Shown one piece after another: positions 6,486 through 56,409 of a stretch of DNA of 64,000 bases. Numbering within the stretch: position 1 is the first letter of the stretch; each line of letters begins with the position of its first letter. Where the stretch lies: positions 62,001-126,000 of the forward strand of contig LAPX01000003.1 of assembly GCA_001858525.1 (NCBI GenBank), read 5' to 3'. Source of the DNA: Vampirovibrio chlorellavorus. GTDB lineage: Bacteria > Cyanobacteriota > Vampirovibrionia > Vampirovibrionales > Vampirovibrionaceae. A program made the position numbers and the translations under genes. The notes beneath the pieces were generated by a model, which was given only the letters and a program-made list of their open reading frames with translations, made no database searches and was not told the DNA's origin.

Positions 6486-7748
6486 ATGCATTTAAAGGCG
6501 TTTGGGTATGGCCGCTTTTTGGTGGTGGCTGCCGTCATTTTCATTGGGTTGGTCGTGACCCTAATCTGTGTGGGGTTCGATGAGCCAGCGTATGATGATC
6601 GAGCGCTTTTGCCCGTTTCAACGCGTGCGGTTGCCTTGGCTCCTCATAAAAATGCCTTTTACTTTTACCAGCAAGCTCAGGGTAAAATCCAGGCTTTGGG
6701 GGATAACACACGACAACGTTTGAAGGATATGGTGGCTGGAAAGGTGGCATGGGACGCTCAGTTTGCGGCTCAGTTACTGAAACAAAACCACTCGGCTTTG
6801 GCCTTGTTTGAGCAAGGCCAGCACTTGCCTCATTTTCAACTGCCTAAGGCAAAAGCACGGCAGGGAGCGGGGGAGGCACCTTATCCCATGTCTCTCTACA
6901 AATTTCAGATATTGATAGACTTAAAGCGCCTGCAGATAGAACTCTTGAAGCGTCAAGGTAAAGAACAACAGTCTCTGCAGGAGATTTTTGGACTGATGAA
7001 AATCGCTCAGCAATTGCGGGAAAATGATTTTGGAAATGATTTATTGACCTTGGCAGTGCGTAAACGCGTTCAAGATCAGGCTCTGGATGAGTTGGTGAGT
7101 CTGCTGCAATCTTCAAAGCTTCCTTCTGCTGTTTTGAAAGACACGATCTCCCGTCTGGAAGGGGCTCGAGATAATACCGCCCACTTGGTTGAAACTCTTA
7201 AATTGGACTATCAGCAGTCTGTGCCCAATCAAGCGGTAGATTCGGCCATGCAAGGTTTGAGAGAAAGCAGTGGCAATTCTAAAGCTGCGGGGGTGTTTTA
7301 CTTTTTTTTACCCAATCAGACCAAGCGGATAGTAGCCCAATATTATGAACAGCTGATTATCAATCTGGAAGCGCCCTATTGGCGACCTAGTCAGGCCACT
7401 ATTCAACCGGTTGCCTGGTGGAATGTCTGGATGCCCAATCTGTTAGGGCGAGTAACTCTGGATGTCAGTCTGCCACGCTATGGGGATTTGCCCCGGAGTA
7501 CGCTGCACGTTCCCAACACCCGTATATCGTTGATCCAAACCTGGATTGCCTTAAAGTGTTACAAGGCTGAGCATGGACAATGGCCCAACGCGCTGAGTGC
7601 CTTAACGCCTCGCTATTTGCCGACGGTACCCATTGACACACTGACAGGTGAGCCCATTCAGTATGATCTACAAGGCGGAACTATTTATTCAGCCGCTAAG
7701 CAAGCGCATGAAAGCCAATTGACAATGCGCTTTAAGCCCGGGCATTAG
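6486..7748 (+). CDS. Membrane-anchored protein of unknown function
   Basis: About 420 residues. The ATG at 6486 has GGAG nine bases upstream; the longer frame from a TTG at 6450 has no clear site. One strong membrane helix near the N-terminus (FLVVAAVIFIGLVVTLICVG) suggests an N-in anchor with the bulk outside the cytoplasm. The middle is helical and charged. The last 70 residues (IQTWIALKCYKAEHGQWP, then DTLTGEPIQYDLQGGTIYS) resemble the tail region seen in some pseudopilin-like or planctomycete-type exported proteins, but I cannot name a family. The last four bases overlap the convergent MerR-like gene. Confidence 0.65.
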   Translation: MHLKAFGYGRFLVVAAVIFIGLVVTLICVGFDEPAYDDRALLPVSTRAVALAPHKNAFYFYQQAQGKIQALGDNTRQRLKDMVAGKVAWDAQFAAQLLKQNHSALALFEQGQHLPHFQLPKAKARQGAGEAPYPMSLYKFQILIDLKRLQIELLKRQGKEQQSLQEIFGLMKIAQQLRENDFGNDLLTLAVRKRVQDQALDELVSLLQSSKLPSAVLKDTISRLEGARDNTAHLVETLKLDYQQSVPNQAVDSAMQGLRESSGNSKAAGVFYFFLPNQTKRIVAQYYEQLIINLEAPYWRPSQATIQPVAWWNVWMPNLLGRVTLDVSLPRYGDLPRSTLHVPNTRISLIQTWIALKCYKAEHGQWPNALSALTPRYLPTVPIDTLTGEPIQYDLQGGTIYSAAKQAHESQLTMRFKPGH

Positions 7749-53639: not shown

Positions 53640-54506
53640 TTAAATGCGGGATTCCGGCGTGCCCAGAAGCAATACTTCCCGGACCACTTTGGCCGCCACC
53701 ACATTGGACACACCCGAGGCATCATAGTGGGGAGAGAGTTCCACCACATCGGCGCCCACAAAATTCAGTCCGGCAAAGGGGAGTAGCCAATCCATAAAGG
53801 TGCTGAAGCTCATTCCGCCGGGTTCCGGGGTGCCCGTGCCGCACAAAATGGAGGGGTCCAGAACGTCCAGATCGATGGTTAAAAAGACCGGGCGCCCTTG
53901 CAGGCGTTGCAGACCCCGGGCGATATCTTCCGGTTTTTCCAGCAGCGTTCCGTTTTGGCGCATCCACTCAAACTCTTCCTTGGGGCCAGAGCGAATACCA
54001 ATCTGCACCAGCCGTTCCGGGCCAATCAGCTCGGTGACCCGGCGCAATACCGTGGCGTGCGATAGCTTCTCACCCAGATAGTCATCCCGCAGGTCGGCAT
54101 GGGCATCAAAGTGCAGCACGGCCAGATCCGGATACTTTTCAATGTAGGCCTCGATGGCCGGGAAGGTCACCAGATGCTCCCCGCCAAGACCCATCCAGCG
54201 TTTGCCAGCGGCCAAGGTTTGTTGGGCGTTTTGGCGAATGATGGCCAGAATTTCATCCCGGTTGCCCTGGGGAAATTCCAGTTCTCCGGCATCGAAGTAG
54301 CGAACCTGGCTTAATTCAGCGTGTTGAATGGGAGAGTAGGTTTCCAGTCCCCAGCTGGCGTTGCGAATGGCCTCTGGGCCGAAACGGGTGCCGGGACGAA
54401 AGGACGTGGTGCCATCGTAGGGCAGGCCCACCAGCACCCAGTCGGCTTCCTCAAAGGTGTCGCAAGCGCCCATCCAGCTGCGAGGGATAAACGGTCCGCT
54501 GAGCAT
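53640..54506 (-). CDS. speB: Agmatinase (ureohydrolase family)
   Basis: 288 residues. It hydrolyses agmatine to putrescine and urea with two manganese ions. Metal ligands are visible in order: GGEHLVTFP (His), HFDAHADLRDDY (Asp, His, Asp) and TIDLDVLDPS (Asp, Asp). The GTGTPEPGGMS loop is typical of agmatinase-like members rather than arginase. Its ATG overlaps the speE stop by one base (TGATG), so the two are coupled. The substrate would have to come from an arginine decarboxylase; see the SpeD paralogue at 55493. Confidence 0.9.
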   Translation of the reverse strand: MLSGPFIPRSWMGACDTFEEADWVLVGLPYDGTTSFRPGTRFGPEAIRNASWGLETYSPIQHAELSQVRYFDAGELEFPQGNRDEILAIIRQNAQQTLAAGKRWMGLGGEHLVTFPAIEAYIEKYPDLAVLHFDAHADLRDDYLGEKLSHATVLRRVTELIGPERLVQIGIRSGPKEEFEWMRQNGTLLEKPEDIARGLQRLQGRPVFLTIDLDVLDPSILCGTGTPEPGGMSFSTFMDWLLPFAGLNFVGADVVELSPHYDASGVSNVVAAKVVREVLLLGTPESRI

Positions 54507-55366
54507 CAGGCCGACACTCCAGCCGGTTCACCGGCAAAGACCGCTTTGACGTAGTTGGGCAGGACGAATACGGTTTTGTGAATCTCCCGGTTGTAGAAGC
54601 GGCAATGCGTTTCCAGCTCGGTAGCCACGGATTCGTTGATTTGCGCCAGCGGTTTCAGCCCTTTGGAGCAGAAGCTCCAGGTCCACTGTCCGCCGGGATA
54701 AGAGGGGATACAGGCCGTGTAAGGTTGCACGTAAGGGAATACGGACTTCAGCAATCGGTTAATCCGCACGCACTCATCGGGCACCGCCACCGGGGATTCA
54801 CTCTGGCATGCCATAATACCGTTCTCGGTCAGGGCGGCCAGCACGTGGGTGTAAAACTCTTTGGTGAACAGTTTTTCGCCGGGGCCAATGGGGTCAGTGG
54901 AGTCGATCAGAATGACGTCGAAGGTGTTGGGATGCTCGGCGATGTAGGCTGCCCCGTCCCGCACTTCAATTTCCACCTTGGGATCATCCAGTTTGCCAGC
55001 GATGGAGGGCAGGTACTTCTTGCAGACTTCAATCACTTCGCCGTCAATTTCGCACAGCACGGCTCGCGCCACGGAGGGGTGTTTCAGTACTTCCCGAATG
55101 GTGCCGCCATCGCCGCCGCCAATGACCAAAACGGTCTTGGGGTTTGGGTGGGCCAGCATAGGAATGTGGGCAATCATTTCGTGGTAAATAAATTCATCCC
55201 GTTCAGAGGTCATCACCATGCCGTCCAGAAACAGCATCCGGCCCAATGCCACCGTCTCCACCACATCTACTTCCTGAAAATCGGACACGGAGTGATGTAA
55301 CACGCTGGAGACCTTGTAGCCCAGCTCGGTGCGATCCTGAAAACGTTCCCGGACCCATAAATCCAT
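54506..55366 (-). CDS. speE: Spermidine synthase (polyamine aminopropyltransferase)
   Basis: 286 residues. It moves the aminopropyl group of decarboxylated AdoMet to putrescine. The Rossmann-type core shows VLVIGGGDGGTIREVLKH, VEIEVRDGAAYI and VILIDSTDPIGP with the catalytic Asp; LDGMVMTSERDEFIYHEM is also diagnostic. The ATG at 55366 lies eight bases after GGAGG; the frame itself opens at a TTG inside that site. It is coupled to speB downstream and separated from the speD genes by a hairpin terminator. Confidence 0.95.
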   Translation of the reverse strand: MDLWVRERFQDRTELGYKVSSVLHHSVSDFQEVDVVETVALGRMLFLDGMVMTSERDEFIYHEMIAHIPMLAHPNPKTVLVIGGGDGGTIREVLKHPSVARAVLCEIDGEVIEVCKKYLPSIAGKLDDPKVEIEVRDGAAYIAEHPNTFDVILIDSTDPIGPGEKLFTKEFYTHVLAALTENGIMACQSESPVAVPDECVRINRLLKSVFPYVQPYTACIPSYPGGQWTWSFCSKGLKPLAQINESVATELETHCRFYNREIHKTVFVLPNYVKAVFAGEPAGVSA

Positions 55367-55450
55367 CGGTGATTCCTCCAATTCAATAAGGCATAAGCGC
55401 GGCAGGCGTGTCCATCAGGGGCAGCGACCCGGCAGCAAGAGAGTTGAGAC

Positions 55451-55487
55451 AAACAAAATGGGAGATGGCTTCTGGCTCATCTCCCAT
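55451..55487 (-). terminator. Terminator or attenuator between the speD pair and speE
   Basis: On the minus strand a perfect ten-base-pair stem (ATGGGAGATG / CATCTCCCAT, ten-base loop) is followed by TTTTGTTT, six bases after the stop of the second speD. It would separate most speD transcripts from speE-speB. Confidence 0.78.
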
Positions 55488-55492
55488 CTGGT

Positions 55493-55915
55493 TTAAACGG
55501 TTGCGCCGACCAGGGGAACTCTTTCTTCAAGACTGCGGGGGAAGTCCAGTCCACGGGTGGCCTCATGGCGTTCCACGTGTTGAACTTCAAAGGTCTCAGT
55601 GACGATTTTGGCCACAGCGTCCACGTCAAAGTGCTTGCAGCTAAAGACGTCAAAGAAGAAGTAGTCCTTGTCGATAAAGGAGTGGAAGGTGATGTGTGAT
55701 TCGGCGATGATGACCGTGCCGGTGATGCCCTTGTCTTCCGGAATCAGACCTTCGTAAGGGAACACGTAGGGCTGGGTGATTTTGGTCATGCCGATGCGAT
55801 CTGGCAGTTCGTTCAGGAACTTGAAGACGAACTCCAGGTTACTGATTTTTTCCAGGTTACAACCACGACAATCCAGCATCAGGTGAGGGCCGAATTCAGA
55901 ACGTACCATAGTCAT
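55493..55915 (-). CDS. Second AdoMet-decarboxylase-fold proenzyme, substrate possibly changed
   Basis: 140 residues, SpeD fold. Self-processing residues are kept: cleavage Ser73 in AESHITFH, His78 and Cys93 (FSC), so a pyruvoyl group should form. In the substrate site the HTWPE of true SpeD is HSFID: the adenine-stacking Trp is Phe and the Glu two residues on is Asp; the Ser aligned with Thermotoga Ser55 is Thr. AGGAGG lies inside the end of the upstream speD, five bases away, so the genes are co-translated. It may be a second AdoMet decarboxylase, but the residue changes and the agmatinase nearby make an amino-acid (arginine) decarboxylase plausible. Confidence 0.8.
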   Translation of the reverse strand: MTMVRSEFGPHLMLDCRGCNLEKISNLEFVFKFLNELPDRIGMTKITQPYVFPYEGLIPEDKGITGTVIIAESHITFHSFIDKDYFFFDVFSCKHFDVDAVAKIVTETFEVQHVERHEATRGLDFPRSLEERVPLVGATV

Positions 55916-55920
55916 TTCTC

Positions 55921-56409
55921 TTAAACCTCCTGAGGCTGTGCTATTTGCTGGGAACCGACAACGTGGGGCGCCGCAGTGGTGGTAGAACTTTGCGCCTCTA
56001 ATTGGAAAGGGGATTCAATCATTTTTTGGGTGCTTAGGTTAATGAGGCCCCGTTTCAGCTCGGAGCAATAAGCGGAGCCGGACTTGAACTTCTCCTGAAG
56101 GTGCTCGTAAGCCATTCTTGGGTCACAGGCAGTCCCGCAAGTGAACAAGTCAACCGCCGCATACCCATACTCTGGCCAGGTATGAATGGCCAGGTGCGAT
56201 TCGGAGATGATGACCGCGCCACTAACGCCATACGGGCTAAAGTGATGGAACTTGGAGTCGACCACGGTGGCGCCACAAGCAATAGCGGCACTCAACATGG
56301 CTTCTTGTACGAGTTGCAGGTTATTCAGGATGTTGGGGTTGCAGTCATAAAACTCTGCCAAAAGGTGTCGTCCCAGGTTGACGACCGTGGAATCATCTTT
56401 CACGTCCAA
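55921..56409 (-). CDS. speD: S-adenosylmethionine decarboxylase proenzyme (class 1b)
   Basis: 162 residues. After self-cleavage before Ser71 (SESHLAIHTWPEYGYAA) it uses a pyruvoyl group to decarboxylate AdoMet for spermidine synthesis. His76, Trp78, Glu80 and Cys91 (LFTCG) match the catalytic and substrate residues of the Thermotoga/Bacillus enzyme, with an offset of eight. It carries a Gln/Thr/Ala-rich tail of about 35 residues not usual in the family. The start is a TTG with AAAGGGA about ten bases upstream. Confidence 0.93.
   Translation of the reverse strand: MDVKDDSTVVNLGRHLLAEFYDCNPNILNNLQLVQEAMLSAAIACGATVVDSKFHHFSPYGVSGAVIISESHLAIHTWPEYGYAAVDLFTCGTACDPRMAYEHLQEKFKSGSAYCSELKRGLINLSTQKMIESPFQLEAQSSTTTAAPHVVGSQQIAQPQEV

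Follow-up and report, generated by a model that had tools for sequence, protein, structure and literature searches.

The polyamine genes of the window, by which we mean the whole 64,000-nucleotide stretch of Vampirovibrio chlorellavorus DNA that was analysed, lie one behind the other on the reverse strand. The first gene, speD1 (56409-55921, 162 aa), encodes an AdoMet decarboxylase (AdoMetDC) of the class 1b SpeD type. It is followed by speD2 (speDA; 55915-55493, 140 aa), whose product is assigned as a SpeD-derived, pyruvoyl-dependent L-arginine decarboxylase. Only 5 bases (55916-55920) separate the two genes and an AGGAGG sequence is located within the end of speD1. Downstream are the genes for a spermidine synthase (speE, 55366-54506) and an agmatinase (speB, 54506-53640), the latter overlapping the speE stop codon by 1 base. 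The open reading frames and their coordinates agree with the earlier note on this DNA, which described tandem SpeD paralogues five bases apart with speB downstream. The mechanically called speE frame begins earlier, at TTG 55381, and the start codon is most likely the ATG at 55366, which lies behind a GGAGG.

The speE gene product scored 342.9 bits against TIGR00417 (cut-off 249.55) and 364 against PRK00811 (cut-off 260). It was the single match to PF01564 in the genome and thus the sole spermidine synthase there. The speB gene product, which the earlier note had taken to be a user of agmatine, scored 296 bits against the agmatinase equivalog TIGR01230 (cut-off 174.3) and was the single genome match to PF00491, with no other arginase-family protein present. 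A hairpin with a U-rich tail is predicted between speD2 and speE on the reverse strand (55450-55495), beginning at the speD2 stop codon, and is a possible candidate for an attenuator or terminator. The hairpin stem was identical letter for letter in two relatives, with one change in the tail of one of them, and the rest of the speD2-speE gap diverged in both. The whole 141-nt stretch between speD2 and speE was no more stable than its shuffles (z -0.93), and the hairpin was absent from the list produced by a consensus terminator scan.

Sequence and predicted fold of SpeD1 and SpeD2

Both SpeD proteins matched the Pfam family AdoMet_dc (PF02675), SpeD1 with an E-value of 5e-41 and SpeD2 with 1e-24. 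The NCBIfam AdoMetDC equivalog TIGR03330 (cut-off 75.65 bits) separated the two, SpeD1 scoring above the cut-off (143.9 bits) and SpeD2 below it (66.1 bits). Alignment with the AdoMetDC of Thermotoga maritima confirmed that SpeD2 keeps the cleavage serine and its two catalytic partners, with Ser73, His78 and Cys93 falling on S63, H68 and C83, and that HSFID stands in place of HTWPE, as had been noticed from the sequence. SpeD1 retains HTWPE. Relative to AdoMetDC, the substrate segment of SpeD2 has Ser for Thr, Phe for Trp, Ile for Pro and Asp for Glu. In AdoMet decarboxylase the tryptophan of this segment stacks against adenine; the Phe that replaces it in SpeD2 is likewise aromatic. The catalytic Ser, His and Cys were invariant across all aligned SpeD2 relatives.

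The AlphaFold2 model of SpeD2 (mean pLDDT 88.7) took the AdoMetDC fold, and its best matches in the PDB were T. maritima AdoMetDC structures, with TM scores of 0.83-0.85 normalised to the target. Sequence and fold matches in the PDB comprised the T. maritima and Aquifex aeolicus AdoMetDCs, which identifies SpeD2 as a class 1b AdoMetDC/SpeD homologue. No match to PF01862 (PvlArgDC) was found for SpeD2, and PF02675 was its only family. PvlArgDC of the Methanocaldococcus type is, like SpeD2, a pyruvoyl-dependent arginine decarboxylase, but its fold is different from and non-homologous to the SpeD fold (PMC9992855). The main difference of SpeD-derived arginine decarboxylases from AdoMetDC is described as the loss of a residue called gamma-Pro (PMC10407285), which we take to be the Pro of HTWPE and which is Ile in SpeD2. 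A 72-sequence tree split SpeD1-type from SpeD2-type proteins with full support; it took in T. maritima, phage and locus sequences only and so is not in itself a placement of SpeD2 relative to the SpeD-derived ornithine decarboxylases (SpeDC).

Activity of SpeD2 and the proposed route to spermidine

The activity of both proteins has been described for V. chlorellavorus in a study of genomes that encode SpeD without SpeE or that encode two SpeDs (Li et al., 2023; PMC10407285). According to that report, an Escherichia coli strain deleted for speD regained spermidine with SpeD1 (WP_181385290) but not with SpeD2 (WP_181385235). The purified SpeD2 protein was active on L-arginine (Km 0.26 mM, kcat 0.20 s-1, kcat/Km 780 M-1 s-1) and its activity on L-ornithine or L-lysine was given as undetectable. 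Such SpeD-derived arginine decarboxylase genes were named speDA (PMC10407285). The published cluster is from the same species and has the same four genes, speD1, speD2, speE and speB, with one AdoMetDC and one arginine decarboxylase; no difference from the window was found in a comparison made with the published description rather than with the accession sequences. The genome contains two SpeD2-type genes (see below), so the assayed protein was assigned to the window locus through its speE and speB neighbours, together with the species name and the make-up of the cluster.

Almost certainly, then, the window cluster is the arginine-to-spermidine route of V. chlorellavorus and SpeD2 is its SpeDA arginine decarboxylase. 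The function of SpeD2 as an arginine decarboxylase in this species is already known, having been published in 2023 (PMC10407285). The substrate switch to a pyruvoyl-type arginine decarboxylase, guessed in the earlier note from raw sequence alone, is thus one already proven at the bench in the same species. The further proposal that the four genes make up a whole arginine-to-spermidine route on two versions of one fold is well supported, since SpeD1 behaved as an AdoMetDC and SpeD2 as an arginine decarboxylase in the published work.

In the proposed pathway, the conserved Ser, His and Cys and the homology to AdoMetDC suggest that SpeD2 would cleave itself before Ser73 to generate a pyruvoyl group. 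This group would then decarboxylate L-arginine to agmatine, the reaction shown by the published assay. An agmatine-to-putrescine route is present because speB, an agmatinase by equivalog, lies inside the cluster, and its product would be expected to convert agmatine to putrescine. SpeD1 supplies decarboxylated AdoMet, as the published complementation showed, and SpeE, to judge from its equivalog match, would use it together with putrescine to form spermidine. The changes from HTWPE to HSFID mark the substrate switch and may also have caused it. V. chlorellavorus was previously described as being without polyamine synthesis genes, and its stated biosynthetic repertoire of 15 amino acids does not include arginine (Soo et al., 2015; PMC4451040). 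The polyamine statement can now be corrected: given arginine, V. chlorellavorus has a full route to spermidine.

The SpeDA enzymes of the third emergence, from Marinimicrobia, Capsulimonas, Woesearchaeota and Diapherotrites, are likewise described as class 1b SpeD folds turned arginine decarboxylase, and, as with the window gene, a way from agmatine to putrescine is encoded in their clusters or genomes (PMC10407285). Those listed in that paper adjoin speY, for homospermidine, whereas the window has speD1 and speE, for spermidine.

Alternative explanations and other arginine decarboxylases

SpeD2 shares its fold, its Pfam family and its Ser, His and Cys with AdoMetDC and might on these grounds be a second, redundant AdoMet decarboxylase, but it has neither the AdoMetDC substrate segment nor gamma-Pro, the tree sets it apart from SpeD1 by a long branch with full support, and it failed in the E. 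coli strain lacking speD, in which SpeD1 succeeded. AdoMet decarboxylase activity of SpeD2, which the earlier note had named as the finding that would speak against its proposal, was thus absent in the complementation as published, a decisive outcome provided that the assayed protein is the one encoded in the window, and we regard a redundant role as very improbable. An ornithine decarboxylase of the SpeDC type, which would make putrescine directly, is suggested by gene order, as SpeDC enzymes of several other phyla are also encoded as a second SpeD next to speD1 and speE (PMC10407285). SpeDC enzymes differ in that they use ornithine and have no need of agmatinase, and their diagnostic residues are reported to be Gln, Thr, Phe and Tyr (PMC10407285). 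The V. chlorellavorus cluster includes an agmatinase and its SpeD2 was reported to be without detectable ornithine or lysine activity, which makes the SpeDC assignment no less improbable than redundancy. The tandem arrangement of the paralogues and their close stop-start coupling would also suit a catalytically dead activator of SpeD1 like the trypanosome prozyme; invariant catalytic residues in all aligned SpeD2 relatives and the activity of SpeD1 and SpeD2 each alone in the published work (PMC10407285) leave this explanation with hardly any probability.

Arginine decarboxylation by SpeD2 also has to be set against other potential sources of agmatine. The absence of a SpeA-, AdiA- or PvlArgDC-like gene from the window was borne out by whole-genome family searches, which detected no other arginine decarboxylase family member inside it. 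PF01862 (PvlArgDC) had zero matches in the genome. AR-fold SpeA or SpeC was likewise absent from the genome, and none of the 18 Vampirovibrionales genomes searched contained an AR-fold SpeA above the cut-off. The only genome match to PF02784 was rejected as a SpeA, being the diaminopimelate decarboxylase LysA (468.7 bits, cut-off 297.9), and a weak PF01276 match on contig C23 was rejected as a BioF/Kbl-type acyltransferase. PF01276 had a single genuine member, an AAT-fold PLP decarboxylase homologue of 480 aa encoded on contig C24 (L014:1090-2532) with OKR_DC_1 and C-terminal domains and an intact PLP-lysine motif. The earlier statement that there is no usual arginine decarboxylase therefore holds across the genome for AR-fold SpeA and PvlArgDC but may not extend to the AAT-fold homologue, so SpeD2 may not be the sole agmatine source. 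The domains and PLP-lysine motif of the AAT-fold protein would allow it to supply most of the agmatine with SpeD2 as an ancillary enzyme. Its gene, however, directly follows a pnp-like (polyribonucleotide nucleotidyltransferase-like) gene rather than lying among polyamine genes. It is present in nearly all of the 18 Vampirovibrionales genomes, among them G017, which is 94% complete, belongs to the same family and yielded no speD1, speD2 or speE. Cyanobacterial homologues of the AAT-fold family were judged probably not polyamine-related (Li et al., 2021; PMC8503589), in a clade that may include the C24 protein. On this evidence a main role for the AAT-fold protein is unlikely.

Conservation, a second SpeD pair and phage relatives

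The SpeD1-SpeD2 tandem pair was kept in 16 of the 18 Vampirovibrionales genomes, with speE and speB behind it in several, and the nearest named relatives of SpeD2 were from Vampirovibrio genomes. Of the codon changes between speD2 and its counterpart in a congener, 26 were synonymous and 2 non-synonymous (dN/dS about 0.02). Strong purifying selection acts on SpeD2, and this dN/dS and the retention of the pair show that it is not a chance open reading frame.

A second complete pair, SpeD1'-SpeD2', with all catalytic residues kept, was found elsewhere in the same genome at L005:7146-8050 (G000:C8:34146-35049), with no speE or speB nearby. The genome therefore has four SpeD homologues compared with the two mentioned in the text of PMC10407285. 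The orphan pair was conserved within Vampirovibrio and also in two genera from a different family; in one genome (G003) its SpeD2' frame was shortened to 107 aa. SpeD1' grouped with the orphan-pair SpeD1' of the two other-family genera (support 99/92), unlike SpeD2', whose grouping was not resolved by the tree. The grouping of SpeD1' across families suggests an old duplication, and the orphan pair is probably an old duplicate. A small conserved open reading frame with the core EFL..VF...G..RFFKTF.LRF was located upstream of the orphan pair in all five genomes compared, which represent two families (for example, L005:about 6771-6986 and L064:9889-10200); the one copy scanned had no Pfam match above the cut-off.

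SpeD2-like genes whose products are 48-58% identical to the SpeD2 of the window were detected on 24 IMG/VR contigs ranging in length from 17 to 508 kb (L080-L103) and on a 735-kb phage genome (LR756501; L032:12001-12378). No SpeE or SpeB relative was detected within 4 kb of these genes in the IMG/VR loci or within L032, a stretch of that 735-kb genome, and the phage genes are apparently solitary. Their products could be arginine or ornithine decarboxylases. We consider it a tentative and rather doubtful possibility that the orphan pair has a role of its own, either as a source of decarboxylated AdoMet and agmatine under regulation of its own or with a changed substrate, and that the phage proteins are further arginine decarboxylases. 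Beyond the papers cited, the literature search yielded no further work on Vampirovibrio polyamines or on SpeDA of huge phages.

A SpeD2 99% identical to that of the window is encoded by MW495066, a 273,876-bp record entitled 'Microcystis phage MaAM05, complete genome'. The stretch at MW495066.1 236180-260599 (L031) includes purF, purL, speD1-speD2-speE-speB and guaD among other genes. Throughout the 24 kb examined its gene order follows that of the window, the DNA being 81-87% identical. This collinearity makes the record look, over those 24 kb, like a misassigned Vampirovibrio chromosome, and the match was rejected as a phage-borne pathway. In two metagenome-assembled genomes not named Vampirovibrio, a SpeD2-like gene (57-58% identity) is followed by an arginase-family gene (L011:5001-6344 and L012:5001-6378). 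The corresponding motif in these two proteins is HTFP, with the Pro kept, and the two loci may be SpeDA-SpeB clusters.
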